Positions 3,351-32,330 of a stretch of 36,750 nt of DNA are shown here, piece by piece. Location: assembly GCF_003259525.1 (NCBI RefSeq), contig NZ_QLLO01000013.1:1-36750 (forward strand), in the 5' to 3' direction. Each line of letters opens with the position of its first letter. Position 1 is the first letter of the stretch. The notes under the pieces were generated by a model that did not search any database, was not told the origin of the DNA, and worked only from the letters and a program-made list of their open reading frames with translations. The stretch is from Olleya aquimaris (GTDB lineage: Bacteria; Bacteroidota; Bacteroidia; Flavobacteriales; Flavobacteriaceae). The position numbers and the translations under genes are program-made.

Positions 3351-3384
3351 GATATATAACAGTTAGGTTAAAAAAATTCCTACC
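3351..3384 (-). promoter_or_regulatory. Candidate ECF-sigma promoter for fecR and receptor
   Basis: On the minus strand GGTAGGAA starts at 3384, inside the sigma-gene stop codon. After 15 nt it is followed by TGTTATATATC (3361-3351). The same two blocks with identical spacing occur at 3948 and 32298. GGAA with a downstream element about 16 nt away resembles ECF -35/-10 promoters. It would start transcription 10-15 nt before the fecR ATG at 3336. Confidence 0.6.
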
Positions 3385-3899
3385 TATAGACCTTCTATTT
3401 CTTCTCTTAATTTTTTTAATGCACCATAAATTCGTTTTTCTACCGCTTTAGTACTAATATCTAATAATTGTGCAATTTCTTTAAAACGTTTTCCTTCCAC
3501 TCGATTCATCAAAAAAGCAACACGTTGTGCTTCTGTTAAATTAGCTATGGCTAACTCTAATTTTTTACGGTATTCATCTTCCTCCATCAAAAATTCTGGG
3601 GACTCGTTAGTTTGATTAGTACGTTTTAATTGCTGGTGTTTTAAGACCACTTTTTGATGCGCAGCTTCATTTAACATTAAATTATTTGCAACAGTAAACA
3701 CGTAACTTTTTGCCTTATCTGGACTTACTTTTTTACAGTTTTCCCAAAGTTTAATAAAGGCTTCTTGTGCTTTGTCTTCTGGGTTTAACCTGTCACCAAA
3801 CTTATAATATAAAAAGTCATGAAGGTTTTTGGCGTGTCGCTTAAAAAACGCTTCAAATCTTGATTTATCACAAATATTATCGTGTAAAGGTTGAGCCAT
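3384..3899 (-). CDS. RNA polymerase ECF-type sigma-70 factor
   Basis: The product has sigma region 2 in the N-terminal half (FFKRHAKNLHDFLYYKFGD through DKAQEAFIKLWENC and SYVFTVANNLMLN) and sigma region 4 near the C-terminus (LTEAQRVAFLMNRVEG, then the helix-turn-helix FKEIAQLLDISTKAVEKRI). At about 171 aa it is a standard two-domain ECF factor. I chose the ATG at 3899 (MAQPLHDN). An in-frame ATG at 3920 adds seven poorly conserved-looking residues and is the alternative. The order sigma, fecR, STN receptor on one strand identifies a FecI/FecR/FecA-like cell-surface signalling unit. The divergent lipoprotein gene at 4051 carries the same promoter motif as fecR and is the best candidate target. 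Confidence 0.93.
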   Translation of the reverse strand: MAQPLHDNICDKSRFEAFFKRHAKNLHDFLYYKFGDRLNPEDKAQEAFIKLWENCKKVSPDKAKSYVFTVANNLMLNEAAHQKVVLKHQQLKRTNQTNESPEFLMEEDEYRKKLELAIANLTEAQRVAFLMNRVEGKRFKEIAQLLDISTKAVEKRIYGALKKLREEIEGL

Positions 3900-3947
3900 T
3901 AGTATGTAATTATAGTGCAAAATAGAAATATTTTTTTTGAATGTAAG

Positions 3948-3980
3948 GGTAGGAATTTTTTAAAAAGAGATGTTTTATTA
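3948..3980 (+). promoter_or_regulatory. Candidate ECF-sigma promoter for the acidic lipoprotein
   Basis: GGTAGGAATTTTTT begins at 3948 and TGTTTTATTA follows at 3971, with the same 15-nt gap between GGTAGGAA and TGTT as in the fecR copy. The first 14 bases are identical to the fecR copy. It points to the lipoprotein gene and predicts a leader of about 65-70 nt. Confidence 0.6.
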
Positions 3981-4025
3981 ATGAAGACCAAAAAATAGCT
4001 ATGAAAAAAGAATTTTTGTCTTCAT
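3981..4025 (+). promoter_or_regulatory. Leader hairpin of the lipoprotein mRNA
   Basis: ATGAAGAC (3981-3988) pairs with GTCTTCAT (4018-4025), and the stem continues with an A-run (3990-3995) against TTTTT (4013-4017), with one bulged C. The hairpin begins immediately after the presumed -10 element, so the predicted transcript would carry it at or very near its 5' end. No T-run follows, so it is not a terminator. mRNA stability or translational control are possible roles. Confidence 0.45.
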
Positions 4026-4050
4026 CATACAGATCCAAAACCAAATAGTT

Positions 4051-5739
4051 ATGTCTATTAAGAAATTCCTTTTTTTGTCCCTTATCTTATTAACTATTTT
4101 AATGTCTTGTCAAAATGAAGAGACTAACATTTCAAACCCGCAACAAGACGAGATTATAGACAGCAATTCATTAACCGCCAATTTAATGACTAGAACAGCT
4201 TTAAACGATGGCTCTACAGATAATATTATTGATTATGCCAATTGTTTAGAAGTCGTGCTACCAGTTACGGTTACTGCAAACGGAGTTACTATTACCATAG
4301 AAAGTTATACAGATTATAATGCATTAGAAGCACTTTTAGATGCGTTTACAAATGATGCAGATCAAGTTGTAATTACATTTCCTATTACAGTAATTTTAAG
4401 TAATTACACAGAACTAGTCATTAATAGCCAACAAGAATTAGAGGCACAAATAGAAAATTGTAATGGCGAAAACGAATATGATGATGATATCGAGTGTATC
4501 GATTTTCAGTATCCAATTAGTTTCTCGATTTACAATACAGATTTTCAAGTTATTGAAACAATAACTATAAATAACGATGAAGCCTTATATAACTTTTTAC
4601 AATCTTTAAATGGTCCTGTTTTAGCAAGTCTTAACTTTCCTGTAACCTTAGTTTTAGCTACAGGCGAAACTATTGAAGTAAATAGCAATCAAGAATTAGA
4701 AGTAGCTATTAGCGAAGCTGAAGATGATTGTGACGAGGATGATGATTATGATTATAATGATGATGACGATTGTACTGAAGCTGCTATAGAGTTAGCTTTA
4801 AAAGAATGCTTATGGGAAATTACAACTTATAATAATACCAATGTGTTTAACGATTATTACATCGATTTTGACTCTAATTACGGGTTTGTAGTTTATGATT
4901 TAAGCGGAAATATAATTCATGATGGTACTTGGGCTATAAGTGAGAATAGTGTAGGTGAATTTATAATAGAATTTAATACCAATTGGCAAGATTTAAATGG
5001 TGCTTGGAGCATTGAAAACTGTAATGATACTGATGAATATAATTTAGTCAATATTCAATCCACCATGCAAATACAGCAGGTTTGTGATGCTAATCCAAGT
5101 TCTTTAGGCTGTTTAGAAGCTAATGCAATAGTTATGTGTGACGACAATAACGATGGAGTTGAAGTTTTTAATTTATATGAAGGATTAAGCGATATTAATG
5201 GGTGTACCATTAATAGTCCAGTAGCTGTAAGTTACCATTTAACTATAGCAGATGCAGAAACAAATGTTAATCCTTTGTCTAGTGTAACTTCTTTTACCAA
5301 TACAATTAACCCACAAGTCATTTATGTAAGAGTAGAAGTTGTTAATAATCCCAGCCAATTTGAGATTTTAGAAATAGAATTAATTTTAGAAGATTGCTCG
5401 ACACCTTGTGAAGCATCTGATGTAGAAACCTATCTGCAAACTTGTATTTGGAATACCGTAAACTTAGATGGAAGCGATAACTTAATTGGGTTTGATTTGG
5501 ACTTTAATGCTAACCATGATTTGGCGATAACCAATACCTCAACAAACGCGACCTATTCTGGTTATTGGAATGTCTCAACTACTGCAACAGGTAATATTTT
5601 GTTAGAATTAGCAAATATTAATGGACCTAATATTCAGGCTATTTCTGGTTATTGGGATTTGGTAGATTGCGATACAGATAGACTACAATTTACAAACGAT
5701 AATAATGCAACATTTGTCATCGAGCAAGATTGCAATTAA
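4051..5739 (+). CDS. Large acidic, probably surface-exposed lipoprotein with duplicated domains
   Basis: The 562-aa product has a lipoprotein signal (lipobox LMSC, lipidated Cys20). QNEE directly after the Cys resembles the acidic export signal that sends Flavobacteriia lipoproteins to the cell surface. Two related domains follow (about 65-137 and 149-227, both with FPxTxxL and NSxQELExxI). Next come an Asp/Glu-rich stretch (224-240) that might bind cations, a beta-rich domain (about 241-345), an approximately 90-residue module (about 354-449: CDDNNDG, SYHL..ADAE, PQVIYVRVE), and a second copy of the beta-rich domain (about 453-561). The module also occurs in the secreted protein at 32942. 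No type IX sorting domain is present. The gene diverges from the sigma factor gene and shares its fecR promoter motif. I recognise it only as an uncharacterised Flavobacteriia type; a role as ligand, adhesin or receptor partner is inference. Confidence 0.85.
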   Translation: MSIKKFLFLSLILLTILMSCQNEETNISNPQQDEIIDSNSLTANLMTRTALNDGSTDNIIDYANCLEVVLPVTVTANGVTITIESYTDYNALEALLDAFTNDADQVVITFPITVILSNYTELVINSQQELEAQIENCNGENEYDDDIECIDFQYPISFSIYNTDFQVIETITINNDEALYNFLQSLNGPVLASLNFPVTLVLATGETIEVNSNQELEVAISEAEDDCDEDDDYDYNDDDDCTEAAIELALKECLWEITTYNNTNVFNDYYIDFDSNYGFVVYDLSGNIIHDGTWAISENSVGEFIIEFNTNWQDLNGAWSIENCNDTDEYNLVNIQSTMQIQQVCDANPSSLGCLEANAIVMCDDNNDGVEVFNLYEGLSDINGCTINSPVAVSYHLTIADAETNVNPLSSVTSFTNTINPQVIYVRVEVVNNPSQFEILEIELILEDCSTPCEASDVETYLQTCIWNTVNLDGSDNLIGFDLDFNANHDLAITNTSTNATYSGYWNVSTTATGNILLELANINGPNIQAISGYWDLVDCDTDRLQFTNDNNATFVIEQDCN

Positions 5740-5779
5740 AATTTAGTTTTAGTTAAGTTTGATTATTAATCAATATTAA

Positions 5780-5808
5780 AAGGTTGTTAATTTTAGCAGC
5801 CTTTTTTT
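5780..5808 (+). terminator. Intrinsic terminator after the lipoprotein gene
   Basis: AAGGTTGTT (5780-5788) pairs with AGCAGCCTT (5795-5803), including two G-U pairs, across a 6-nt loop. A T-run reaches 5808. Confidence 0.75.
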
Positions 5809-5831
5809 ATGGAATTATTTGTAGGCTAAAC

Positions 5832-5862
5832 TTCGTAAATACGCTTCAAATTCCTATTTTTG
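5832..5862 (+). promoter_or_regulatory. Vegetative promoter of ffh
   Basis: TTCG (5832-5835), 19 nt, then TATTTTTG (5855-5862) fits the Bacteroidota consensus TTG/TTTG-N19-TAnnTTTG with one weak position in the -33 element. The predicted leader is about 55 nt. Confidence 0.55.
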
Positions 5863-5923
5863 CCAATCATAAACAACGAGTCAGACTAGTTACTACTTAC
5901 TGACTACTGAACACTAAATAAAC

Positions 5924-7252
5924 ATGTTTAATAATTTAAGCGAAAAGTTAGATAAAGCGTTACACGTACTAAAAGGACACGGTAGTATTACAGAAGTAAA
6001 CGTTGCCGAAACCTTAAAAGAAGTACGTAGAGCACTTTTGGATGCCGATGTTAACTTTAAAATAGCTAAAGATTTTACCAATAGAGTTAAAGAAAAAGCA
6101 CTAGGTCAAAACGTATTAACCACGTTACAACCTGGACAATTAATGGTTAAAATTGTTAAGGACGAATTAACCGAATTAATGGGTGGTGATGCAGAAGGGC
6201 TTAACCTATCTGGTGCACCAACTGTGATTTTAATGTCAGGTTTACAAGGATCTGGTAAAACCACGTTTTCTGGTAAATTAGCTAACTTCTTAAAAAACAA
6301 AAAAACAAAAAAACCTTTATTAGTAGCTTGTGATGTGTATCGTCCAGCTGCAGTTGATCAATTACACGTGGTAGGAGATCAAATTAATGTAGAGGTTTTC
6401 AGTGATAAAGGAAATACAGATCCTGTGGCTATAGCACAAGCAGGTATCGCTCATGCCAAGCAAAATGGTCATAACGTTGTAATTATAGATACCGCTGGTC
6501 GTTTAGCAGTTGATGAAGCTATGATGACAGAGATTTCTAACATCCATAAAGCTATTCAACCACAAGAAACCTTATTTGTGGTAGATTCTATGACAGGTCA
6601 AGATGCAGTTAATACTGCTAAAGCCTTTAATGATGTGCTTAATTTTGATGGTGTTATCTTAACCAAATTAGATGGTGATACGCGTGGTGGAGCTGCAATT
6701 TCTATTAAATCTGTAGTCAATAAACCTATTAAGTTTATTGGTACTGGAGAAAAGATGGAAGCAATTGATATTTTCTACCCTTCGCGTATGGCAGATCGTA
6801 TTCTTGGGATGGGAGACGTGGTGTCTTTAGTAGAACGTGCTCAAGAACAGTTTGATGAAGAGGAAGCTAGAAAACTACAAAAGAAGATTGCTAAAAACCA
6901 ATTTGGTTTTGATGACTTCTTAAAGCAAATCCAGCAAATCAAGAAAATGGGTAACATGAAAGACCTTATTGGAATGATACCTGGAGCTGGAAAAATGATG
7001 AAAGGGATAGATATAGATGATGATGCGTTTAAAGGTATTGAAGCAATAATCCACTCCATGACACCAAAAGAGCGTACCAATCCTTCAATAATAGATGCAA
7101 GCAGAAAAAAACGTATTGGTAAAGGATCAGGTACCTCAGTACAAGAAGTAAACCAGCTACTAAAGCAATTTAATCAAATGAGCAAGATGATGAAGATGAT
7201 GCAAGGTGGTAAAGGAAAAGCTATGATGAATGCAATGAAGAATATGAGGTAA
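5924..7252 (+). CDS. ffh: Signal recognition particle protein Ffh (SRP54)
   Basis: This is the cytoplasmic GTPase that binds signal sequences of nascent membrane proteins and, with SRP RNA and FtsY, delivers them to the Sec translocon. The 442-aa protein shows the N-domain helical bundle (1-90), the G domain with P-loop GLQGSGKTT (about 107-115), DTAGR and TKLDGDTRGG, and a Met-rich M domain (about 300-442) containing the SKMMKMMQGGKG-type tail. Length and domain order are normal. It has its own candidate promoter upstream. Downstream, an S23-like gene separates it from folD. Confidence 0.97.
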   Translation: MFNNLSEKLDKALHVLKGHGSITEVNVAETLKEVRRALLDADVNFKIAKDFTNRVKEKALGQNVLTTLQPGQLMVKIVKDELTELMGGDAEGLNLSGAPTVILMSGLQGSGKTTFSGKLANFLKNKKTKKPLLVACDVYRPAAVDQLHVVGDQINVEVFSDKGNTDPVAIAQAGIAHAKQNGHNVVIIDTAGRLAVDEAMMTEISNIHKAIQPQETLFVVDSMTGQDAVNTAKAFNDVLNFDGVILTKLDGDTRGGAAISIKSVVNKPIKFIGTGEKMEAIDIFYPSRMADRILGMGDVVSLVERAQEQFDEEEARKLQKKIAKNQFGFDDFLKQIQQIKKMGNMKDLIGMIPGAGKMMKGIDIDDDAFKGIEAIIHSMTPKERTNPSIIDASRKKRIGKGSGTSVQEVNQLLKQFNQMSKMMKMMQGGKGKAMMNAMKNMR

Positions 7253-7264
7253 ATTCAGTTTTTT

Positions 7265-7298
7265 AGTCTCAGTCGCAGTTTTTCAGTCTTACTCTCGC
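7265..7298. repeat. Left arm of inverted repeat flanking the S23-like gene
   Basis: The segment contains CAGTCGCAGTTT and CTTACTCTCGC, which recur in inverted orientation at 7729-7770 with a few mismatches and a 3-nt gap. The two arms bracket the small gene at 7340. Confidence 0.6.
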
Positions 7299-7339
7299 TT
7301 TAAAATAGTTCAGTTTAATAATTAGATAAACTTAATAGT

Positions 7340-7714
7340 ATGGATTTCAAAAATTTAATAGCCTATCAAAAAGCGTTTGATTTGGCTATGCAAATTTTTG
7401 AGGTTTCCAAATTATTTCCTACAGAAGAAAAATATTCACTTACAGATCAAGTAAGAAGGAGTTCGCGTTCAGTCTGCGCCAATATGGCTGAAGCATATAG
7501 AAAAAGAAAATTTTCAAAGCATTTTATTAGTAAATTAACTGATTGTGATGGTGAAAATTCAGAAACGAGTACGTGGTTAGATTTTGCTTTTAAATGCAAT
7601 TATATTTCTAAAGAAGAATATATAAAGTTGATTAATCAATCTACCGAAATCGGAAAGCTGATAAATTACATGATAAATAATCCAGAAAAATTCGGAGTAA
7701 ACATCAAAAAATAG
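7340..7714 (+). CDS. Four-helix-bundle protein (S23/TIGR02436-like)
   Basis: The 124-aa protein has the family hallmarks: an N-terminal FKNLIAYQKAFDLA, then SLTDQVRRSSRSVCANMAEAYRKR, and a helix around the EEYIKLINQSTEIGKLINYMI segment. Members of this family, first known from 23S rRNA intervening sequences, form small pentameric helical bundles of uncertain function and are scattered singly through Bacteroidota genomes. Here it stands between ffh and folD, bounded by an inverted repeat (7265-7298 and 7729-7770), which suggests insertion as a unit. It is also related to the Avd accessory protein of diversity-generating retroelements, but no reverse transcriptase or variable repeat is present in the window. 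Confidence 0.9.
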   Translation: MDFKNLIAYQKAFDLAMQIFEVSKLFPTEEKYSLTDQVRRSSRSVCANMAEAYRKRKFSKHFISKLTDCDGENSETSTWLDFAFKCNYISKEEYIKLINQSTEIGKLINYMINNPEKFGVNIKK

Positions 7715-7728
7715 AAAAAACCAAAACC

Positions 7729-7770
7729 GCAAGAGTAAGAAAACTGTAAACTGCGACTGCGACTGAAAAC
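7729..7770. repeat. Right arm of inverted repeat flanking the S23-like gene
   Basis: It reads GCAAGAGTAAG, then tandem ACTGCG steps, as the reverse complement of the 7265-7298 arm with few mismatches. It ends only 9 nt before the folD start codon. Confidence 0.6.
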
Positions 7771-7779
7771 TATTAAACT

Positions 7780-8670
7780 ATGACCATTCTAGACGGAAAA
7801 AAAGTTAGTAACGACATTAAAAACGAAATTAAAGCTGAAGTTGACAAAATGAAAGCTAATAATGAGAAAGTCCCTCATTTAGCTGCAGTCATAGTTGGTA
7901 ATGATGGCGCAAGTTTAACCTACGTAGGTAGTAAGGTTAGAGCTTGCGAGCGTGTTGGTTTTGAATCTACTATGGTGAGATTGTCTAATACTACTAGCGA
8001 AGTTGAGCTGTTAGATAAAATTGAAGAACTTAATAACAACGATGATATAGATGGTTTTATCATCCAGTTGCCACTACCAGATCAAATAGATACCCAAAAA
8101 GTATTAATGGCTGTGCATCCAGATAAAGATGTTGATGGGTTTCATCCAACTAATTTTGGAAAAATGGCGTTAGACATGTCTACTTTTATCCCTGCCACTC
8201 CCTTTGGAATATTAGAGTTGTTAGACAGATATAATGTAGATACCAAAGGTAAACATACTGTGGTAATTGGTCGTTCCCATATTGTTGGTCGTCCAATGAG
8301 TATTTTAATGGGTCGTAAAGGGTTTCCTGGAAATTCAACAGTAACATTAACCCATAGTCACACTAAAAATATTACTCAAATTACCAGTCAAGCAGATATT
8401 ATTATATCAGCATTAGGAGTGCCTAACTTTTTAAAAGCAGAGATGGTTAAAGATGATGCAGTTATTATTGATGTTGGGATTACTCGTGTACCAGACGATT
8501 CTACAGAAAAAGGATATCGTATTACAGGTGATGTAGATTTTGAAAACGTGAGTAAAAAAGCAAGCCATATTACACCTGTTCCAGGTGGAGTAGGACCAAT
8601 GACCATTGCAATGTTGCTAAAAAACACTCTGCTAGCAAGAGAGCGTCACAGAAAAGGATATAAAGAATAA
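7780..8670 (+). CDS. folD: Bifunctional methylenetetrahydrofolate dehydrogenase/cyclohydrolase FolD
   Basis: FolD interconverts 5,10-methylene-, 5,10-methenyl- and 10-formyl-tetrahydrofolate in the cytoplasm, using NADP+ or NAD+, and supplies one-carbon units for purines and formyl-Met-tRNA. The 296-aa product carries the signature YVGSKVRACERVGF with the catalytic Tyr/Lys, QLPLPDQ, KDVDGFHPTN, the nucleotide-binding VVIGRSHIVGRP, and the C-terminal TPVPGGVGPMTIAMLLKNT. Length and motifs are typical. It begins just after the right arm of the repeat that flanks the S23-like gene, so its transcription may come from ffh or from within the insert. A strong terminator follows. Confidence 0.97.
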   Translation: MTILDGKKVSNDIKNEIKAEVDKMKANNEKVPHLAAVIVGNDGASLTYVGSKVRACERVGFESTMVRLSNTTSEVELLDKIEELNNNDDIDGFIIQLPLPDQIDTQKVLMAVHPDKDVDGFHPTNFGKMALDMSTFIPATPFGILELLDRYNVDTKGKHTVVIGRSHIVGRPMSILMGRKGFPGNSTVTLTHSHTKNITQITSQADIIISALGVPNFLKAEMVKDDAVIIDVGITRVPDDSTEKGYRITGDVDFENVSKKASHITPVPGGVGPMTIAMLLKNTLLARERHRKGYKE

Positions 8671-8695
8671 ATACAATTTAATTACTTATTTTTAA

Positions 8696-8725
8696 AACCT
8701 GAAACTTATCGTTTCAGGTTTTTTT
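8696..8725 (+). terminator. Intrinsic terminator of folD, abutting the next start codon
   Basis: AACCTGAAAC (8696-8705) pairs perfectly with GTTTCAGGTT (8711-8720) across a 5-nt loop, followed by five more T. The last T is immediately followed by the ATG of the YwaF-like gene at 8726. Confidence 0.85.
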
Positions 8726-9439
8726 ATGCAATTATTAGCTAGAGTACAATTTGGAAGTTTAGAACACCTATTGCCTATTATATTGGCAATTGTTTTTTGT
8801 ATAGTAATGTTTAGTTATGTTAAATCTAAATCTGAAAAAACAAAGAGTTTGGTTTTTAAGTATTTGGGCATTTTTGTTTCTGGTTTTATACTTGTTTTTC
8901 ATGTCTATCAAATCTGTTTAGGAGACTATAATTTTAAAACCGATTTACCCTTATTTCTATGTAGTTTTATTGCTTTGTTTATTTGGGTATTCACTTTGAC
9001 TCAAAAATACAGTCTATTTGAAATTTTACTGTTTTGGATAATTGCTGGAACGTCTCAGGGAGTGATTACTCCAGATATTGCTGAAGGTTTTCCTAGTTTT
9101 GATTATTTTAGATACTGGGTAGTACACCTAGGGTTATTGACAATAATTGCTTATGCAATTGCTATTTTAAAGATGAGACCAACTATAAAAAGCGTGTTTA
9201 AATCTTTTTTTATGTTGCAAATTTATGTGGTATGTATGTTAGTTGTTAATTATAGTTTAGGTACTAATTATTCTTATTTAAATAGCAAGCCTATTTCCGG
9301 TTCAGTTTTAGATTATTTAGGAGACTGGCCTTATTACATCATTATCGCTCAACTGATTTTGTTACCACTTTTTTTACTAATTTATTTTCCGTTTTATTTG
9401 GCAAAAAAAAAGAGTCTCAATACTATTGAAACTCTTTAG
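8726..9439 (+). CDS. YwaF/TIGR02206-like integral membrane protein
   Basis: The 237-aa protein has about seven hydrophobic helices and the features of the YwaF family: FGSLEHLLPI at the N-terminus, a central GVITPDIAEGFPSFDYFRYW and a late GTNYSYLN..PISGSVLDYLGDWPYY. The biochemical role of the family is not known. The ATG at 8726 is the only sensible start, because the FGSLEHLLP segment begins eight residues later and no other ATG precedes it. That start directly follows the folD terminator T-run, so its mRNA must either read through the terminator or start inside it. The 3' end overlaps the hairpin that terminates the convergent minus-strand genes. Confidence 0.85.
   Translation: MQLLARVQFGSLEHLLPIILAIVFCIVMFSYVKSKSEKTKSLVFKYLGIFVSGFILVFHVYQICLGDYNFKTDLPLFLCSFIALFIWVFTLTQKYSLFEILLFWIIAGTSQGVITPDIAEGFPSFDYFRYWVVHLGLLTIIAYAIAILKMRPTIKSVFKSFFMLQIYVVCMLVVNYSLGTNYSYLNSKPISGSVLDYLGDWPYYIIIAQLILLPLFLLIYFPFYLAKKKSLNTIETL
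9403..9437 (-). terminator. Terminator of the minus-strand cluster, inside the YwaF-like 3' end
   Basis: AAAGAGTCTCAA (9409-9420) pairs with TTGAAACTCTTT (9426-9437) with one mismatch. On the minus strand it is followed by a run of nine T (complement of 9403-9411). The hairpin occupies coding sequence of the convergent gene. Confidence 0.7.
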
Positions 9440-9456
9440 GTATTTTAAGTTAACTA

Positions 9457-9648
9457 TTATTCGGAATCTGCAGGTTCGTCTTTTCTGTATTTTAACATAG
9501 ACACACCAGCAATAAAAAACACACCACCTAATATGGTCAGTGCCCAAGGGTTTAGCGATGTCATATCGTTTCCAAAGACACCTAATACACCTAGTATTAA
9601 TGCAATCATTCCACCTATTGTTAGGATAAGAGCTAGTATTTTAATCAT
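9457..9648 (-). CDS. Small two-helix membrane protein
   Basis: This 63-aa protein consists of two hydrophobic helices (about 4-25 and 37-53) joined by a short loop containing NDMTSLNPWA, and ends in a charged tail (KYRKDEPADSE). I do not recognise a specific family. Similar small membrane proteins are common in Flavobacteriia without known roles. It is the last gene of the minus-strand run, 60 nt after the VOC gene, and is followed by a good terminator, which supports its being a real transcribed gene. Confidence 0.7.
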   Translation of the reverse strand: MIKILALILTIGGMIALILGVLGVFGNDMTSLNPWALTILGGVFFIAGVSMLKYRKDEPADSE

Positions 9649-9708
9649 AATCTTAAAAATTTAGGTTAGTATTTATAAAAATAAACAATTTTTAATTAAT
9701 GTTAAAAA

Positions 9709-10131
9709 CTACTTGGCAAACAATTGTGACTGGTCTTTAAAGGCTTTAAACTCTAAAGCATTTCCTGCTGGATCTTTAAAAAACATGGTTTTTTGTTCGC
9801 CAACCAAACCTTCAAACCTAATATAAGGCTCTATAATAAAGTTGATGTTTTTTGACTTTAAGTGAGCTTCAAATTGTGTGAAAACCTCCCAATCTAAAAC
9901 CACTCCGTAATGTGGTACAGGAACGTGTTTACCATCTACTTCATTTGCAGCATCATCTTCTTCCGATTTTGCCTTGTAATGAATAACTAACTGGTGCCCA
10001 AAAAAATTGAAGTCTACCCAATGGTCACTACTTCGTCCTTCCTCGCAGTTTAAAATATCTCTGTAAAACATGCGACACTCTTCTAAATTATGAACAGGAA
10101 TCGCTACATGAAAAGGTGATAATGTACTCAT
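9709..10131 (-). CDS. VOC-family (glyoxalase/dioxygenase-fold) protein
   Basis: The 140-aa product is a single vicinal-oxygen-chelate unit pair. It starts with [21 protein letters not shown], whose first His is a usual metal ligand, has a central PHYGVVLDW with a second His, and ends with [13 protein letters not shown], whose Glu is the usual last ligand. Members include lactoylglutathione lyases, fosfomycin-resistance enzymes and dioxygenases, and the substrate cannot be assigned here. It starts 6 nt after the rluF stop, so it is cotranscribed with rluF. Confidence 0.88.
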
Positions 10132-10137
10132 AATGTA

Positions 10138-10902: not shown

Positions 10903-10908
10903 AATAAT

Positions 10909-11748: not shown

Positions 11749-11753
11749 TTTAT

Positions 11754-12119: not shown

Positions 12120-12129
12120 AATTATTAAT

Positions 12130-12681: not shown

Positions 12682-12721
12682 TAAAAATTATTTAGTTTAT
12701 TGTTTACACCTAAAATGTGGT

Positions 12722-22978: not shown

Positions 22979-22989
22979 TCTGATAATGA

Positions 22990-23722: not shown

Positions 23723-23745
23723 TAAGTAACTACCTTAAAATTATA

Positions 23746-23776
23746 AAAAAGAGCAACTATTTTAGTTGCTCTTTTT
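23746..23776 (+). terminator. Intrinsic terminator after the DUF4412-like gene
   Basis: AAAAAGAGCAACTA (23746-23759) pairs with TAGTTGCTCTTTTT (23763-23776) around a 3-nt loop. Confidence 0.85.
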
Positions 23777-23830
23777 AGTTTAATCCAATTTTGCTAGCTA
23801 CAAGTGTTAGTAATAAACACTATATTTTTC

Positions 23831-23838
23831 TATATTTG
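23831..23838 (+). promoter_or_regulatory. -7 element for the exported protein before secDF
   Basis: TATATTTG is a perfect TAnnTTTG match ending 4 nt before the ATG at 23843, which implies a leaderless or nearly leaderless mRNA. The -33 position is weak. Confidence 0.5.
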
Positions 23839-23842
23839 AAGC

Positions 23843-24427: not shown

Positions 24428-24519
24428 CAGATTTTATTTTAAAATCACACCTACGTAAAAACCTTCAATACAATTAATAATTGAAGCACAAAATCATTCA
24501 TTTTATAATTTAAAAATAA

Positions 24520-24550
24520 TTGTCAAATACTCGTGTAAACTATATATTAG
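24520..24550 (+). promoter_or_regulatory. Candidate promoter of secDF
   Basis: TTG (24520-24522), 20 nt, then TATATTAG (24543-24550) matches the vegetative consensus except for one base of the -7 element. Confidence 0.5.
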
Positions 24551-24584
24551 TGCGATAAAAAATTGACATTAAATAATCAAAACC

Positions 24585-27500
24585 ATGCAAAATAAAGGAT
24601 TAGTAAAATTATTTGCAGTGTTGTTTGGATTGGTAAGTATTTACCAATTATCATTCACGTTTAAAAATAACGCGATTGAGAGCAATGCTATGCAATTGGC
24701 AGAAAGTAAAATTGAAGCCTCAGCAGAAGACCGTTCTGCTAAAGTAAACGAGTTTGCAACAAACTATTTAGATTCATTAGCCACTTCAAAAGAAACCGTG
24801 TTTTTAGGAAACACTTATGGAGAAGTGAAGCAAAACTCAATGAAGTTAGGTCTTGACCTTAAAGGAGGTTTAGAAGCTATACTTCAAATATCTGTTAAAG
24901 ATATCTTACTTGGATTATCAAATCAAAGTAAAAACCCAAAATTTAGAAAAGCATTAGATGACGCGGACGAGATCCAGAAAAATAGTCAAAACACTTATTT
25001 AGAAGATTTCTTTGTGGCTTTTGATGCAATTAAAGGCGATACTAAATTAGCCTCTCCAGATATCTTTGCTAACCGTTCTATGGTTGGAGAGATTGATTTA
25101 AATATGTCTGATGACGATACTAAAGCTGTCCTAGAAGCAAAAATGGACGATTATATCGTTTCTGCTTTTGAAGTATTACGTAAGCGTGTTGATGAGTTTG
25201 GGGTAACGTCTCCAAATATCCAACGTTTAGGTAACTCTGGACGTGTATTATTAGAATTACCAGGTGTAAAAGATGTAGAGCGTGCTACAGAGTTAATTAC
25301 AACAACAGCACAATTAGAATTCTGGGAAGGTTTAAAAGCAGAACAGTTTACAGCATTTTTAGCACAAGCTAATGAGGTAATAAAAGCTAAAGAAAAAGCA
25401 AGTACTGAAGGTGAAGAAGCTACTGCTGAAGAGCAAGAAATGACTGAAGCTGAAAGAGCTATTGCAGAATTAACAGGTGAAGAAAACGAAGTAGTAAGTG
25501 TTGTTAATCCATTAAGTGATCTATTAGTAACTCCTGGATATGGTGCAACCCTGGCAATGGTTAAGTTATCTGACAGAGAAAAAGTAGCAAACTACTTAGC
25601 AATGCCAGAAGTTAGAGCTTTATTACCAGGTGAGTTAAAACACACTAAGTTTTTATTTGGAAAGCCAACAGAAGATAGTGAGTTAGTAGAGTTATTTGTT
25701 TTAAAAGGAAACAGAGACAACGAGCCACCATTAAGTGGAGCAGTAGTTACAGATGCACGTCAATCTTACAACCAGGCTAACAAAGTGGTAGTAAGTATGC
25801 AGATGGATAGTAAAGGTGCTAAGATTTGGGAAAAAATGACAGGTGATGCCTTTAAAACCCAAAGCCAAATAGCAGTAGTGTTAGATGATATTGTATATTC
25901 TGCACCAACTTCTACATCTGGACCAATTGCAGGTGGAAGTACTGAGATTTCTGGAAGTTTTACGTTAAGTGAAGCAACAGATTTAGCAAACGTGTTACGT
26001 GCTGGTAAGTTACCTGCAAGTGCAGAAATTATTCAAAGTAGTGTGGTTGGACCATCTTTAGGTCAAGAAGCTATAGATAGTGGTACTATGTCTTTTGGTA
26101 TTGCATTAGCATTAGTATTATTATGGATGGTGTTTTACTATGGTAAAGCAGGTTTATTTGCAGATATTGCCATGTTATTTAACATCCTATTAATTTTCGG
26201 AATCTTGTCTGGTATTGGAGCTGTATTAACACTTCCTGGTATTGCAGGTATCGTATTAACTATTGGTATGTCTGTGGATGCTAACGTACTTATCTTTGAG
26301 CGTATTAGAGAAGAACTCTCCAAAGGTAAAGACCAGAAATCTGCTATTCAAGATGGATTTAGTAATGCCTTATCTTCTATTTTAGATGCCAACATTACAA
26401 CAGGTTTAACTGCATTAATCTTATTTATTTTTGGTACAGGACCAATTAAAGGATTTGCAACAACGTTATTAATTGGTATTGGTACGTCTTTATTTACAGC
26501 TATTTTTATTACTAGATTATTAGTAGATTGGTATGTTAACAGAGGTGGTAAATTAGACTTCGCGACAGGATTAACTAAAAATCTGTTCAGAAACATCAAT
26601 ATTGCTTTCCTTAAAAAACGTAAGGTTGCTTATATTATTTCTGGTATTGCTTTAGTAGCAAGTTTAGCATCATTAACTATTAATGGTTTAGATCAAGGAA
26701 TTGATTTTGTTGGAGGACGTACTACACAAGTGCGTTTTGCAGAGCCAGTTAGCGCAGTAGAAATTGAAGGGATTTTAGCATCACCAGATGTATTTGGTAG
26801 TGCAACAGTAAAAACTGTTGGAGATGATAATAACTTAAAAATTTCTACTAAATATAAAGTTAACGAAACTGCAAACGAGGTTGACGAAGAAATAAGAACT
26901 AAAATGTATGATGCTTTACAGCCTTACCTTAAGGGAGTGTCTTTTGAAGAATTTAAAGATCTATCTAAAGAAAACAAGCAAGTAGGTATTATGGATCAAT
27001 ACAAAGTAAGTCCATCTATTGCAGACGATATTAAACAAGCGTCATTCTGGGCGGTTTTAGGATCGTTAGTAGTGGTATTCTTATATATCTTATTCCGTTT
27101 TAAAAGATGGCAATTCTCTTTAGGTGCAGTAGCTGCAGTATTCCATGATGTTATCATCGTATTAGGAGTATTCTCTATTACTTACAAGTTTATGCCTTTC
27201 TCTATGGAAATCGACCAAGCTTTCATCGCAGCAATCCTAACCGTAATTGGTTACTCGCTGAATGATACAGTGGTTGTATTTGATAGAATTAGAGAATTTT
27301 TTAACGAGCATACCAACTGGCCATTCAATAAAGTTATTGATAGCTCATTAAGTAGTACATTAAGTCGTACGTTAAATACGTCTTTAACAACCTTAGTGGT
27401 GTTATTAGCTATCTTTATTTTTGGTGGAGAGTCTATTAGAGGCTTCATGTTTGCCTTAATTATTGGTGTTATAGTAGGTACCTACTCATCATTATTTATT

Positions 27501-27596
27501 GCAACACCAATCATGTACGATTCGGTTAAAAAAGGAAATGCAGCAGACGCATTAAAAAAGAAAGAAGAAGTTATTGACGAGACAGTAGTCAAGTAA
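24585..27596 (+). CDS. secDF: Fused protein translocase subunit SecDF
   Basis: SecD and SecF assist SecYEG by using the proton gradient to pull exported proteins across the inner membrane. Here both are one 1003-aa polypeptide. The SecD half has an N-terminal helix, a large periplasmic region (LGLDLKGGLEAILQISV near residue 91, VLRKRVDEFGVTSPNIQR and the P1 head), and a helix block with GMSVDANVLIFERIREEL. The SecF half begins about residue 685, with GIDFVGGRT and VIGYSLNDTVVVFDRIREFF. The fusion is usual in Bacteroidota. A strong terminator follows. Confidence 0.96.
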   Translation: MQNKGLVKLFAVLFGLVSIYQLSFTFKNNAIESNAMQLAESKIEASAEDRSAKVNEFATNYLDSLATSKETVFLGNTYGEVKQNSMKLGLDLKGGLEAILQISVKDILLGLSNQSKNPKFRKALDDADEIQKNSQNTYLEDFFVAFDAIKGDTKLASPDIFANRSMVGEIDLNMSDDDTKAVLEAKMDDYIVSAFEVLRKRVDEFGVTSPNIQRLGNSGRVLLELPGVKDVERATELITTTAQLEFWEGLKAEQFTAFLAQANEVIKAKEKASTEGEEATAEEQEMTEAERAIAELTGEENEVVSVVNPLSDLLVTPGYGATLAMVKLSDREKVANYLAMPEVRALLPGELKHTKFLFGKPTEDSELVELFVLKGNRDNEPPLSGAVVTDARQSYNQANKVVVSMQMDSKGAKIWEKMTGDAFKTQSQIAVVLDDIVYSAPTSTSGPIAGGSTEISGSFTLSEATDLANVLRAGKLPASAEIIQSSVVGPSLGQEAIDSGTMSFGIALALVLLWMVFYYGKAGLFADIAMLFNILLIFGILSGIGAVLTLPGIAGIVLTIGMSVDANVLIFERIREELSKGKDQKSAIQDGFSNALSSILDANITTGLTALILFIFGTGPIKGFATTLLIGIGTSLFTAIFITRLLVDWYVNRGGKLDFATGLTKNLFRNINIAFLKKRKVAYIISGIALVASLASLTINGLDQGIDFVGGRTTQVRFAEPVSAVEIEGILASPDVFGSATVKTVGDDNNLKISTKYKVNETANEVDEEIRTKMYDALQPYLKGVSFEEFKDLSKENKQVGIMDQYKVSPSIADDIKQASFWAVLGSLVVVFLYILFRFKRWQFSLGAVAAVFHDVIIVLGVFSITYKFMPFSMEIDQAFIAAILTVIGYSLNDTVVVFDRIREFFNEHTNWPFNKVIDSSLSSTLSRTLNTSLTTLVVLLAIFIFGGESIRGFMFALIIGVIVGTYSSLFIATPIMYDSVKKGNAADALKKKEEVIDETVVK

Positions 27597-27616
27597 TCCG
27601 TAACTACTCTCATATT

Positions 27617-27651
27617 AAAAAGCCTTTCTATTGATTTAGAAAGGCTTTTTT
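27617..27651 (+). terminator. Intrinsic terminator after secDF
   Basis: AAAAAGCCTTTCTA (27617-27630) pairs perfectly with TAGAAAGGCTTTTT (27637-27650) across a 6-nt loop. Confidence 0.88.
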
Positions 27652-27659
27652 ATTTTGTG

Positions 27660-27684
27660 TCATTGCAAGTAGAGCGAAGCAATC
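27660..27684. repeat. Short REP-like sequence
   Basis: The sequence has ATTGC, then AGAGCGAAGCAATC. Dispersed copies of this kind (attgc...gaagcaat) are common in Flavobacteriia intergenic DNA. Only one copy lies in this window, so the identification rests on memory. Confidence 0.4.
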
Positions 27685-27710
27685 TTTTTAAATCAATCAA
27701 TATAATTTTT

Positions 27711-27820
27711 TAGGGCGTTACCCACTTTTGCTTTTAGTGGCAAAAGTGCGTCAGGCTTTTCACTCCAATCTTTTTGCTCGTGCCTCACAAAAAGGATTTC
27801 TGTTACAATCCTTAACGCAG
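27711..27820. repeat. Structured intergenic repeat element with GCGTTA/TAACGC ends
   Basis: The element begins TAGGGCGTTACCC and ends CCTTAACGCAG, with inverted ends GCGTTA (27715-27720) and TAACGC (27813-27818). Inside are two perfect hairpins: CACTTTTGC (27723-27731) with GCAAAAGTG (27740-27748), and AAGGATT (27792-27798) with AATCCTT (27807-27813). It resembles a dispersed Flavobacteriia repeat family I recall, but no second copy is in the window. It has no coding content and fills most of the 366-nt gap after secDF. Confidence 0.5.
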
Positions 27821-27926
27821 GCAAGCACTTAGTTTATTTTTTGCATCTAATCTACTCTAGTATACCATAGGTGTATTGAGTTTAGCTAAAGATAAATTAA
27901 GACAATGATAAATTAAAGATCATAGT

Positions 27927-27934
27927 TAGTTTTG
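27927..27934 (+). promoter_or_regulatory. -7 element for the small Cys protein
   Basis: TAGTTTTG matches TAnnTTTG 28 nt before the ATG at 27963. No -33 TTG is seen. Confidence 0.35.
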
Positions 27935-27962
27935 AGTATTATTAACTTAAATAAATAAAATT

Positions 27963-28199
27963 ATGTTTTGGGTAGTATTAGGAATTGTAATTGTTTTATG
28001 GTGGGTTATTGGAACAATGGACACTAGTCCAAATTCTAACGGTCAACCAAAGCCACAAGGAGGTAGTGGTAAAGATTGTGCATCATGTAATAGTATTAAA
28101 TCTTATTACAATGGATTAAGTAGATGGAAAAAAATAAAAAAAGCTATATGGTATGGTTTAAAGGTTACAGATTGTTGGTTAAGAGGTTGTAAAATTTAA
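27963..28199 (+). CDS. Small membrane-anchored protein with Cys pairs
   Basis: The 78-aa product has one N-terminal membrane helix (about 2-19, MFWVVLGIVIVLWWVIG), a Pro/Gly/Ser/Asn linker (22-36), then a compact basic segment with four cysteines: CASC at about 39-42 and two more near the C-terminus (DCWLRGC). I do not recognise it. The Cys spacing could hold a metal or disulfides. It is a real-looking gene because it has a strong hydrophobic start, a -7 element upstream and no overlapping alternative. It stands alone between the repeat element and the convergent DUF192 gene. Confidence 0.6.
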   Translation: MFWVVLGIVIVLWWVIGTMDTSPNSNGQPKPQGGSGKDCASCNSIKSYYNGLSRWKKIKKAIWYGLKVTDCWLRGCKI

Positions 28200-28245
28200 T
28201 TATTTAACTAACAAAGAATTGAATAAGTAATTTCTTTGCTAGTTG

Positions 28246-28749
28246 CTATTTTACCAACTTATACTCAAAATAGTCCATCTTATCACCAACATCTAATAAC
28301 AGTTTTTGTGCAGTTCCTGCATTAACTTCTAATACAAATTGTGCAGGTGTATTAGATGGTAAACTGCTTTCGTCCATAGGTTTTGCATTTTCTTGAAAAC
28401 TTACAATACGTTTGTTATGGTCAAAAAAGATAAGGTCTAATGGGATACGTGTATTTTTCATGTAAAAAGAACGCTCTCTAACATCGTTAAATACAAACAA
28501 CATACCTTGATCGTCTTTCATGCTATCACGATACATTAATCCTGTTTGGATGTCGTAATCTGTTTTAGCAATTTCTATATTAAATACTTTAATAATAGTA
28601 TCTGTGGTCCCTTTAAAAAGGGTAAGTTCACCTTCTTTTTTAAAATCTACCTTAATTGGCTCTATAGCTTTCTCCTCTTTGCAAGAGGTTAAATTACAAA
28701 CTAGAATAACACTTAAACAAAGTAGAGAAGATTTGATATAATGTTTCAT
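28246..28749 (-). CDS. DUF192-family lipoprotein
   Basis: The 167-aa product has a lipoprotein signal with lipobox LTSC (Cys23) and then CKEEK. The mature part is a DUF192 domain, recognised by the segments IAKTDYDIQTGLMYRDSMKDDQGMLFVF, RSFYMKNTRIPLDLIFFD and FVLEVNAGTAQKLLLDVGD. DUF192 is a small beta-domain of unknown function. The acidic residues right after the lipidated Cys resemble a Flavobacteriia surface-export signal, so it may face outward. Its ATG lies directly after the lgt stop, so the two genes are cotranscribed; Lgt would modify this very protein. Confidence 0.88.
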   Translation of the reverse strand: MKHYIKSSLLCLSVILVCNLTSCKEEKAIEPIKVDFKKEGELTLFKGTTDTIIKVFNIEIAKTDYDIQTGLMYRDSMKDDQGMLFVFNDVRERSFYMKNTRIPLDLIFFDHNKRIVSFQENAKPMDESSLPSNTPAQFVLEVNAGTAQKLLLDVGDKMDYFEYKLVK

Positions 28750-29679
28750 TTAATTAACTTTTGTTTTTGGTTTAAATACAAACATAAAATACAAGCCAAT
28801 TAAAACAAATGGAATACTTAACCATTGTCCTGTATTTAGTCCAAACCAGTTTATAAATTCGTCACCTTGAGGTTCTTTTACATATTCTACAAAAAATCTA
28901 ACCGTCCAAAGTAGAACTAAAAAAAGTCCAAATAAAAAGCCGGTTTGATCTTTTTTTGCGGTTTTAGTATACACAAACCACAAAATTAAAAACACAAAAA
29001 TATAACTAAACGACTCATACAATTGTGCAGGATGACGGTAAGGAACAGCTTCTAACAGTTGAGACATATTAGAATTTTCAGTAATAGAAGCATAAGCCTT
29101 TTTTACATCCTTAATTCCTGTTTTTTCTACAATCTCATATTTATTATAAAAGTTTTGTACAAAACGTACACCTAAGTCGCTATCTGTTACTTTTCCAATA
29201 ATTTCAGAATTAATAAAGTTTCCAATTCTAATAAACACAGCACCAGAAGCTACAGGTATAACTATGCGGTCTAAAATCCACATCAACGATTTGTAATTGT
29301 ATTTTTTACGATACAAATACATACCAACAATTATCCCAATTGCTGCACCATGACTGGCTAATCCTTGAAATCCTTGAAACTCAAAACCTCCTGCAAACTT
29401 AAACGGTAAAATAACACTTAATGGGTCTTGTGTGAATAATTCGGGTTGATAAAATATAACATGACCCATTCTTGCGCCTAACATGGTGGCTAAAACGGTG
29501 TAAATAAATAAAGGGTCTAAATACTCTAACTTGATGTTTTCACGTTTAAAAACACGTTTCATAATAGCATGTCCAAGGACAAATGCGACAATCCACATTA
29601 AGCTATAAAAATGAATTTTGAAATTTCCAACAATATCGATTCCAGTTAATGGATTCCAATCGAATTTAAGTAAATACAT
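28750..29679 (-). CDS. lgt: Prolipoprotein diacylglyceryl transferase
   Basis: Lgt transfers a diacylglyceryl group from phosphatidylglycerol to the lipobox Cys, the first step of lipoprotein maturation, in the inner membrane. The 309-aa protein has about seven helices and the family motifs GARMGHVIFYQ (about residues 68-78), FQGLASHGAAIGI, and the signature RIGNFINSEIIG. A hydrophilic insert around VEKTGIKDVKKAYASITENSNMS (about 165-190) is longer than in E. coli, and is followed by PYRHPAQLYE. It sits upstream of a lipoprotein gene and downstream of yidD. Confidence 0.96.
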   Translation of the reverse strand: MYLLKFDWNPLTGIDIVGNFKIHFYSLMWIVAFVLGHAIMKRVFKRENIKLEYLDPLFIYTVLATMLGARMGHVIFYQPELFTQDPLSVILPFKFAGGFEFQGFQGLASHGAAIGIIVGMYLYRKKYNYKSLMWILDRIVIPVASGAVFIRIGNFINSEIIGKVTDSDLGVRFVQNFYNKYEIVEKTGIKDVKKAYASITENSNMSQLLEAVPYRHPAQLYESFSYIFVFLILWFVYTKTAKKDQTGFLFGLFLVLLWTVRFFVEYVKEPQGDEFINWFGLNTGQWLSIPFVLIGLYFMFVFKPKTKVN

Positions 29680-29735
29680 AGTTTGTTTTTTGGAGTTGTA
29701 AATATAGCATTTATGCTTTATTTATTAGAATTTAT

Positions 29736-29957
29736 TTAGGGTACAGGATCATAACCCTTTCCTCCCCAAGGATGACAACTAAAAATACGTTTTAGGCTTA
29801 ATCGACCACCTTTTAGTAATCCGTGTTTTAATAATGCTTCTTTGGTGTAATGAGAGCATGTTGGTTGGTATCTACAGGTCGCGGGAGTAAAAGGAGAAAT
29901 AAGGGTTTGATAAACCTTTATTAATAATAAGAATGGTGCGATTAGTAGTTTTTTCAT
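29736..29957 (-). CDS. yidD: Membrane protein insertion efficiency factor YidD
   Basis: The 73-aa protein has an amphipathic N-terminus ([20 protein letters not shown]) and the family signature [20 protein letters not shown], then [15 protein letters not shown], including the three conserved cysteines. YidD helps insert inner-membrane proteins, usually alongside YidC. It lies between cysS and lgt on the same strand, an arrangement I recall from other Flavobacteriia. Confidence 0.95.
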
Positions 29958-29975
29958 TTTTAAAATGAAATCAAG

Positions 29976-30006
29976 TTGTCAGACTGAGCGCAGTCGAAGT
30001 CTTTTT
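29976..30006. repeat. REP-like sequence between cysS and yidD
   Basis: AGACT, then GAGCGCAGTCGA and AGTCT, followed by a T-run. The same type (ttcgactgcgctcagtctgaca on the other strand) is a very common dispersed Bacteroidota intergenic sequence. The AGACT/AGTCT ends form a weak hairpin that might act as a terminator. Only one copy is in this window. Confidence 0.45.
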
Positions 30007-30056
30007 TAAACAATTACCTTAAATTATTTATTCTGCACTCAATTAGATAATTATAA

Positions 30057-31541
30057 TTATTGAGTAGAAAAGGTTGTCCCTTCCTTACCATCGTTTAGTT
30101 GAATACCTGCTTCTGCAAGTTCATTTCTAATTTTATCAGATAATGCAAAATCTTTATTTGCTCTGGCTTCTTGGCGTAGCTTTATTAACAATTCTACTGC
30201 TCCAGTAAGTTTGTCTGTACCAGATGAGCTTATCGATTTATCGTTTTTTAGACCTAAAATATCAAAAATAAAAGCGTTGATGGATTTTTTAAAAGTGTCT
30301 AAATCCTTTTCAGAAATAGTTTCTGTTCCTTCTTTAATTTGATTGATGTATTTAACGCCTTCAAATAAATTAGCAATTAAAATAGGTGTGTTAAAGTCAT
30401 CATTCATAGCATCATAGCATTTTTGTTGCCATGCTTCTATTTTTAATGATGAGGTGTCAGCAGTTTTTAAATCATCTAACTGACTTACTGCTTCCATTAA
30501 TCTGTTATAGCCTTTTTCGCTAGCTAATAATCCATCGTTAGTAAAATCTAATATACTTCTGTAATGTGCTTGAAGCATAAAAAATCTTGCAACACTTGGT
30601 GTATAGGCTTTAGTAATGTGCGGATTGTTACCAGAAAAAATCTCTGTAGGTAATATAAAATTACCTGTTGATTTTGCCATTTTTTTACCATTCATAATTA
30701 GCATATTGGCATGCATCCAGTAGTTAACTGGTGTATTACCTTTTGCTGCTTGGTTTTGGGCAATTTCACACTCGTGATGAGGGAATTTTAAATCCATTCC
30801 ACCACCATGAATATCAAAATGCTCACCAAGATATTTGGTGCTCATAGCTGTACACTCTAAATGCCAACCTGGGAAACCATCGCTCCAAGGTGATGGCCAA
30901 CGCATAATATGTGTTGGTTCTGCTTTTTTCCAAAGTGCAAAATCTTGAGGGTTTTTCTTGTCTGATTGTCCATCAAGCTCTCTAGTATTATGGATAAGGT
31001 CTTCTAATTTACGTTTACTTAAAATCCCGTAATTATTAGTTTTATTGTATTTATGTACATCAAAATACACAGACCCATTAACCTCGTAAGCAAAACCATT
31101 GTCAATTATTGTTTTAATAAGCTCTATCTGCTCAATAATATGTCCTGTAGCAGTAGGTTCTATACTAGGTGGTAAAAAATTAAAGGTGTTTAATATATTA
31201 TGAAAGTCCACGGTGTAGCGTTGTACAACTTCCATAGGTTCAATTTCTTCCAAACGTGCCTTTTTAGCAATACGGTCTTCACCTACATCTGCATCATTTT
31301 CTAAATGTCCAGCGTCTGTAATATTTCTTACATATCTTACTTTATAACCTAAATGTTTTAGATATCTAAAAATAACATCAAAAGACATAAATGTCCTTAC
31401 GTTTCCTAAATGGACATTACTGTAAACGGTTGGTCCACAAACATACATACCTATATAACCTGGATTAATTGGTGTAAAATCATCTTTTTCGCCACTAAGC
31501 GAATTATAAATTTTTATGTGTTGTTGTTTGTAAAGTTCCAT
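30057..31541 (-). CDS. cysS: Cysteinyl-tRNA synthetase
   Basis: This enzyme charges tRNA-Cys in the cytoplasm. The 494-aa class I synthetase has the zinc/substrate segment [16 protein letters not shown] with the HIGH-equivalent HLGN (about residues 40-43), zinc ligands in [10 protein letters not shown] and HHECEIAQ, and the KMSKS-equivalent KMAKS (about 286-290). The C-terminal helical tRNA-binding region ends with [20 protein letters not shown]. It starts 9 nt after the folE stop, so the two are cotranscribed. Confidence 0.97.
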
Positions 31542-31550
31542 TAGTTATTA

Positions 31551-32228
31551 CTAAAATTTTGTGTCTAATTTGATGTAATCTAAAAATTCGCGTTTAGTTT
31601 CTTTCTTTTTAAATTGTCCACCAAATTCTGAAGTTACTGTACTGCTTTCTACGTCTCTAATTCCTCTAGAATTGACACATAAGTGCTTGGCATCTATCAC
31701 ACAAGCAACGTCTTTTGTACCTAATACATCTTGTAATTCTTTTACAATTTGAATGGTTAATCGCTCTTGTACCTGTGGTCGCTTAGCAAAATAGTCTACA
31801 ATGCGATTCATTTTAGATAATCCTACAACAGTTCCGTTAGAGATGTAAGCTACATGAGCTTTTCCAACTATAGGCAACAAATGATGCTCGCAGGTAGAAT
31901 ACACAGTAATGTTTTTCTCAACCAGCATTTCTCCATATTGATATTTGTTTTCAAAGGTTGAAGCACTAGGTTTTTTGTCAGGATGTAAACCTCCAAATAT
32001 TTCGTTAACAAACATTTTAGCAACGCGTTTTGGTGTGCCTTTTAGACTGTCATCTGTTAGATCTAAGCCTAAGGTTTCCATGATGTTTGTGACATCTTTT
32101 TTAATGCTTTCAATTTTATCAGAATCTGATAGCTTAAAAGCATCTAGTCGTAATGGAGTGTCGTGATTGGTGCTAATATGATTTTCGCCAATAGCATCGT
32201 TTTCTTCTATATTATTTTCAATCTTCAT
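31551..32228 (-). CDS. folE: GTP cyclohydrolase I
   Basis: FolE converts GTP to 7,8-dihydroneopterin triphosphate, the first step of tetrahydrofolate synthesis and, through QueD, the source for QueE substrate. The 225-aa protein has the zinc and active-site motif VYSTCEHHLLPIVGKAHVAYI, VGLSKMNRIVDYFAKRPQVQERLT, and HLCVNSRGIRD with the second zinc Cys. About 30 N-terminal residues precede the core and look unstructured. It is the first gene of the folE-cysS transcript and has its own -7 element upstream. Confidence 0.96.
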   Translation of the reverse strand: MKIENNIEENDAIGENHISTNHDTPLRLDAFKLSDSDKIESIKKDVTNIMETLGLDLTDDSLKGTPKRVAKMFVNEIFGGLHPDKKPSASTFENKYQYGEMLVEKNITVYSTCEHHLLPIVGKAHVAYISNGTVVGLSKMNRIVDYFAKRPQVQERLTIQIVKELQDVLGTKDVACVIDAKHLCVNSRGIRDVESSTVTSEFGGQFKKKETKREFLDYIKLDTKF

Positions 32229-32266
32229 TTAAATACGGTCTGTAAATAGGTGTATAAAATAGTTTG

Positions 32267-32274
32267 CAAAGATA
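32267..32274 (-). promoter_or_regulatory. -7 element for folE-cysS
   Basis: On the minus strand TATCTTTG matches TAnnTTTG about 39 nt before the folE ATG. No TTG occurs at the -33 position. Confidence 0.5.
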
Positions 32275-32297
32275 AGCAATAAAAAAATTTCTTTTAG

Positions 32298-32330
32298 GGT
32301 AGGAAATTATTAATTACAGTTGTTATATCT
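32298..32330 (+). promoter_or_regulatory. Candidate ECF-sigma promoter for the secreted-protein operon
   Basis: GGTAGGAA (32298-32305), 15 nt, then TGTTATATCT (32321-32330). The blocks and the gap are the same as in the sites before fecR and before the acidic lipoprotein. The bases after GGTAGGAA diverge (ATTATT instead of TTTTTT), so the identity is confined to the two blocks. The predicted leader to the ATG at 32425 is about 85-90 nt. Confidence 0.5.

Follow-up and report, generated by a model that had tools for sequence, protein, structure and literature searches.

A conserved two-box motif around an extracytoplasmic function sigma factor gene of Olleya aquimaris and its predicted surface-protein targets

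The sigma factor locus and the copies of the motif

The DNA stretch analysed here (36,750 nucleotides (nt) of Olleya aquimaris contig NZ_QLLO01000013.1, hereafter the window) harbors a gene cluster encoding an extracytoplasmic function (ECF) sigma factor, a FecR-type regulator and a TonB-dependent receptor, together with a divergent lipoprotein gene and copies of a two-block motif that probably represents the promoter read by this sigma factor. The sigma factor (171 amino acids (aa); 3384-3899, minus strand) scores above the cut-offs of Sigma70_r2 and Sigma70_r4_2 and matches ECF sigma structures; its best NCBIfam match, TIGR02985 (Bacteroides-type sigma-70 subfamily), stays below threshold (106.5 bits, cut-off 126.4). 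The FecR-type regulator (299 aa; 2437-3336, minus strand) exceeds the cut-offs of FecR and FecR_C and contains a membrane segment, as judged by eye. The receptor (756 aa; 174-2444, minus strand) consists of Plug and beta-barrel domains, starts with GTG and overlaps fecR by 8 nt, and the acidic lipoprotein (562 aa; 4051-5739, plus strand) has its lipobox cysteine at residue 20.

A preliminary description of the window had placed the motif at three sites, and exactly three matches to GGTAGGAA-N15-TGTTWTAT were recovered, at those places and nowhere else: P1 (3354-3384, minus strand), P2 (3948-3978, plus strand) and P3 (32298-32328, plus strand). In 100 dinucleotide shuffles of the window the same pattern gave zero matches. 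Also borne out by the site sequences and the open reading frames (ORFs) were the 14 consecutive bases said to be common to P1 and P2, which P3 matches in blocks and spacing only, and the location of the ECF sigma gene between P1 and P2. P1, the predicted -35/-10 element of the fecR-receptor operon, shares one base with the sigma gene, the G that closes the TAG stop codon and is the first G of the site, and the end of its 29-base core is 18 nt short of the fecR ATG. The core of P2, the predicted -35/-10 element of the divergent lipoprotein gene, ends 73 nt before the ATG of that gene, and that of P3, assigned likewise to an operon encoding a small secreted protein and an adhesin, 97 nt before the first ATG of the operon. 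In the window no copy of the motif occurs ahead of the sigma gene itself, so the level of the sigma factor would be set by something else.

A scan of the whole genome, as the preliminary description had proposed, covered 2,948,123 bases in 21 contigs and returned four exact copies ahead of genes for surface proteins, rather than a random scatter of hundreds: the three of the window and one on another contig (C1:605927). The backward control gave none, and 0.0086 were expected from base composition. Sorted by number of mismatches, the genome contains 4 matches at zero, 0 at one and 9 at two. The relaxed core GTAGG-N17-TGTTNTA matched eight times (control 0), comprising five GTAGGAA sites, the fifth of which is a slightly weaker copy at C7:77671, and three GTAGGTT sites that were rejected as chance matches because they lie opposite long ORFs. 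Of the nine two-mismatch matches, three were inspected (C1:46056, C2:143666 and C7:77670), and the first two were rejected since they fall inside ORFs.

Conservation and co-occurrence with the sigma gene

In order to assess the conservation of P1 and P2, named genomes were searched with a 14-sequence sigma alignment and the loci of the best 80 of 573 relatives were kept (L086-L165), most labelled as Flavobacteriaceae genera and a few being metagenome-assembled genomes with broader labels; strains with the module include Mesoflavibacter zeaxanthinifaciens, Dokdonia pacifica and a Winogradskyella type strain. GTAGG-N17-TGTT was found 3' of the sigma gene and aimed at fecR in 79 of the 80 loci, the sole miss (L089) having a contig end close by. 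An outward-pointing copy at the opposite flank of the sigma gene is present in 76 (misses L090, L108, L117 and L128). Shuffling gives a background of 0.45 and 0.05 of 80 loci for the P1 and P2 positions, respectively, and spacings of 15, 16, 18 and 19 were encountered at either position in none of the 80. Across the combined 953 kb of the loci, spacing 17 was counted 178 times and the other spacings from 12 to 22 were counted 1 to 19 times each. The information content of the aligned sites is highest in the two boxes and low in the flanks. The closed sister genome G008 contains the exact four sites in the same arrangement, including P3 with its genes, and five with the relaxed pattern.

The genes around the sites are conserved as well. 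A fecR relative occurs in 79 of the 80 loci, with the P1 core ending 14-18 nt before its ATG in 71 of these 79; the different distance in the other eight may reflect start-codon choice. In the majority of the 80 loci, fecR and the receptor gene share 8 or 11 nt. Among ORFs of at least 80 aa downstream of P2, a lipobox-like cysteine is present in 65 of 73, and seven of the remaining eight are ffh. Upstream of the sigma gene, sigma-A or SM5-type boxes within 70 nt were detected, counting either type, in 25 of the 80 loci, which is not conclusive. Also, a TTGAA-like stretch right after the P1 box (3337-3353, minus strand, in the window) is strongly conserved across L086-L165, with a G at 2.4 bits, and is absent from P2. 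Combined with the short, constant distance from P1 to the fecR ATG, its presence points to a second signal or to an mRNA leader that is very short.

The occurrence of the motif was further analyzed in 397 genomes of the family, where GTAGGAA-N15-TGTTNTA gave 251 matches in 124 genomes and its backward control 54 in 52. A strong sigma ortholog (about 275 bits or more) is encoded by 120 genomes, 94 of which carry the motif (210 matches). It was found in only 23 of the 255 genomes with neither a strong nor an intermediate sigma match (27 matches; control 33); the 22 genomes with an intermediate match, seven of them motif-positive, were set aside. Genome G198, counted as sigma-negative, has five matches and a weaker sigma relative flanked by a pair of sites, and the split is thus conservative at this point. 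Among 296 genomes sampled from the order, the family makeup of which is not given, all ten sigma matches at E <= 1e-75 belong to the same family. Two genomes of one genus, G128 and G322, have unusually many strict sites (9 and 5, some inside ORFs), possibly representing a larger regulon.

Predicted targets outside the sensor cluster

The first gene after P3 (32425-32898, plus strand) encodes a protein of 157 aa with a signal-like start and no Pfam or NCBIfam family; its relatives stand directly ahead of an adhesin gene in loci L055 and L070. It is followed by a giant repeat adhesin gene (32942-36748, plus strand) with CUB and PKD domains, truncated by the contig end. Downstream of the fourth site, C1:605927, another giant repeat protein is encoded, whose start resembles that of the window adhesin and which scores above the PKD cut-off and just below that of CUB. 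An identical 31-mer occurs at 36709-36739 of the window and at C1:609198-609228, and both contigs end within adhesin genes in the same repeat sequence, which probably marks an assembly break at a shared repeat. A large ORF with a signal-like start and no Pfam match has its ATG 26 nt beyond the end of the site at C7:77671.

Both adhesins are complete in G008, the relative of the window adhesin measuring 2397 aa and the other 2165 aa, and both terminate in a type IX secretion system (T9SS) type B sorting domain (TIGR04131; 122 bits each, cut-off 35). This domain was scored on the G008 proteins; the window and C1 genes are truncated by contig ends. A gene of the PorP/SprF family (TIGR03519) lies behind one of the G008 adhesins, and type B proteins are reportedly held at the surface by PorP-like partners, as stated in an excerpt of PMC9143113. 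No T9SS machinery gene follows any of the five GTAGGAA sites in the O. aquimaris genome, as judged by the ORFs downstream of them, although other promoter forms may exist. The lipoprotein behind P2 contains one copy of the giant-adhesin repeat domain (residues ~345-450), which is present in many copies in the giant adhesin ORFs. A fold search gave no convincing match to the whole lipoprotein; single-domain matches to potempin E (TMt ~0.7, E ~0.007-0.016) are only a hint of a possible lipocalin-like barrel.

Outside this genome, 35 lone strict sites from 20 other genomes, a selection among the matches listed, were considered. Five of them are located within ORFs, and for another two no ORF begins in a range of 300 nt, although at one of the latter (L203) an open frame, PorP-like by eye, runs downstream at the contig end. 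Of the 28 followed by an ORF start, 22 precede signal- or membrane-like products according to a crude rule, compared with 91 of 200 background ORFs from the same loci. Profile searches of six targets from other genera assigned T9SS type A sorting domains above cut-off to three (L175, L178 and L206), a type C sorting match below cut-off to L202 and a DUF4382 lipoprotein to L171; the L180 target had nothing above cut-off. Eight genomes of a Psychroserpens-type clade have 37 sites outside the module; downstream of at least 11 of these, in six genomes, an ORF carrying the adhesin repeat lies no more than 4.5 kb away, against an expectation of 0.13. Tiny predicted membrane peptides were also observed right after strict sites: related ones of 28 residues in L169, L181 and L185, and a second pair, of 49 and 63 residues, in L196 and L200.

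In nine of the sigma loci (L132, L134, L137, L138, L140, L148, L149, L152 and L157) P2 is kept and the adjacent lipoprotein gene is gone. There, P2 is followed by a short stretch, a strong terminator-like hairpin and then ffh; a T-rich element precedes the hairpin in eight of the nine, and also in L115, where the lipoprotein gene is kept. Eight of the nine genomes encode lipoprotein relatives elsewhere, none of which, by inspection, lies near a relaxed site in the seven of these genomes that were scanned. An Rfam search of the nine loci with the predicted short P2 transcript gave zero matches. The short stretch is a candidate sigma-controlled small RNA, and in the Psychroserpens-type clade the retained P2 would give rise to a regulatory RNA of 85-90 nt (155-165 nt in two loci). 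The logic would be analogous to that of the sigma-E-dependent envelope small RNAs of enteric bacteria.

Proposed regulation, alternatives and relation to known systems

The motif, its invariant spacing, its orientation and position, its conservation and its co-occurrence with the sigma gene are features of the DNA itself. We infer from them, with a probability of roughly 85%, that the motif is the -35/-10 promoter of the one ECF sigma factor encoded at 3384-3899, acting in cell-surface signalling of the FecI/FecR/TonB-dependent-receptor type and driving the fecR-receptor genes, the lipoprotein gene and the unlinked adhesin operons. The predicted arrangement of sensor, sigma and surface genes is conserved in many marine Flavobacteriaceae. 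In the proposed mechanism FecR would reside in the inner membrane and hold or license the sigma factor, until an extracellular ligand, whose existence and nature are conjectural, binds the receptor and a signal passes through the receptor N-terminal domain to FecR, freeing active sigma. The freed sigma factor would then transcribe fecR and the receptor gene from putative start sites downstream of P1, providing feedback and a supply of sensor, as well as the divergent surface lipoprotein gene and the unlinked operons of giant T9SS type B adhesins, whose sigma-dependent expression would change the cell surface.

The preliminary description had proposed autoregulation of the fecR-receptor genes plus two surface targets, an interpretation that appears essentially right: the sites recur in nearly all related loci and the motif is found mainly in sigma-positive genomes. 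It needs amendment in that the sigma gene itself lacks the motif and that at least two further unlinked sites exist (C1:605927 and C7:77671).

Several observations weigh against this interpretation or caution against extending it. The association between the motif and strong sigma orthologs (Fisher p ~9e-42) ignores kinship, and 26 of the 120 sigma-positive genomes lack the strict motif; GTAGGAG and GTAGGGA variants, missed by the strict scan, may account for these. The receptor probably has an N-terminal signalling domain, since at E <= 0.1 STN was matched by 5 and FecR_C by 16 of its 18 relatives, yet the window receptor itself matched neither profile, the lack of STN being the unfavourable point. 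Besides the five lone sites inside ORFs, a sixth, in L177, is positioned opposite a long ORF and probably reflects chance, despite being counted among the 22, and no obvious sign of secretion is seen for the targets in L170 (sugar-transferase-like), L199 and L204. With up to three mismatches the own genome yields 91 matches against 91 in the control, and the window 46 against 43.7 expected. These loose scans of window and genome were dropped as being at chance level; together, the equal genome counts and the gap at one mismatch set the four exact copies apart as a separate class and render loose matches meaningless. The motif signal is confined to the exact blocks and spacing.

Such loose matches, and the strict matches inside genes of other genomes, are what an origin by chance, or plain shared ancestry of intergenic DNA, would predict. 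This explanation is already contradicted by the conservation test, in which the boxes are conserved and the flanks are not, and also by the excess of exact copies (4 against 0.0086) and the retention of P2 in the nine loci without an adjacent lipoprotein gene, leaving it with a negligible probability. The element could instead be the operator of an ordinary DNA-binding regulator, as the kinds of binding site are indistinguishable from sequence alone. However, two unlike blocks at one fixed spacing, the constant aim of P1 and P2 at a gene, the fixed short distance to fecR and the ECF sigma gene between the sites make an operator very improbable. The strongest competitor, itself unlikely, is an ECF promoter read by a paralogous sigma factor, or by several overlapping ones, rather than specifically by the neighbouring one: searched with the sigma alignment, the genome yields three hits at E <= 1e-30 along with 18 first-look candidates, and overlapping ECF regulons were deemed possible in F. 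psychrophilum (PMC9723704, text in part). In contrast, the presence of the motif tracks strong orthologs of the neighbouring sigma factor, and its sites flank the sigma gene in 76-79 of the 80 loci.

Promoter recognition by the neighbouring sigma factor would define a promoter class that is unusually sharp by the standards of Bacteroidota ECF sigma factors, with two boxes, one spacing and one candidate sigma, so that targets could be read from sequence throughout this common marine family. In addition, TonB-receptor signalling in this system would seem to extend beyond nutrient uptake to the control of adhesion and surface display, and type strains offer a way to test what these receptors sense. 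A more tentative idea, which we consider rather doubtful, is that of a surface-identity switch, in which one sensor-coupled sigma factor would jointly set the lipoprotein, the giant repeat adhesins and their anchors, the tiny membrane peptides and the small RNA.

No report of the motif, the promoter class or a FecR-linked adhesin regulon was found in the open-licence papers searched, and a published ECF group motif may exist. The closest parallels are the FecI/FecR/FecA system for ferric citrate of E. coli and HasI/HasS/HasR of Serratia, both described in PMC9249621, of which excerpts serve here. The E. coli system likewise combines an ECF sigma factor, FecR and a TonB-dependent receptor, and its sigma gene is not autoregulated; there, sigma-70 transcribes fecI and fecR together, FecI being responsible for the fecA transport operon, whereas here both fecR and the receptor gene lie behind the motif, which is also carried by unlinked adhesin genes. 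The wiring of the Serratia system is the same, the anti-sigma gene being controlled by the sigma factor and the sigma gene not being autoregulated, but its targets serve haem uptake under Fur control and the excerpts describe no adhesin regulon.

In the same family, the SM6 motif of F. psychrophilum represents an inferred class of ECF promoters whose targets include T9SS genes; the class described here differs in its TGTTNTA box and in its cargo and surface targets, and the SprB operon of F. psychrophilum is placed under SM4 and SM5 (PMC9723704, as excerpted). PorXY-SigP of P. gingivalis also ties an ECF sigma factor to type IX secretion, but, in the portion of PMC4800418 available, it is driven by a two-component system and directed at T9SS component genes, in place of FecR, receptor and surface proteins. 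A cell-surface signalling sigma factor of P. aeruginosa that regulates virulence likewise has a regulon other than uptake (PMC2729926, in extract), in a different phylum and with different targets. The components of the O. aquimaris system are of known kinds, and its promoter class and their combination are a variant.

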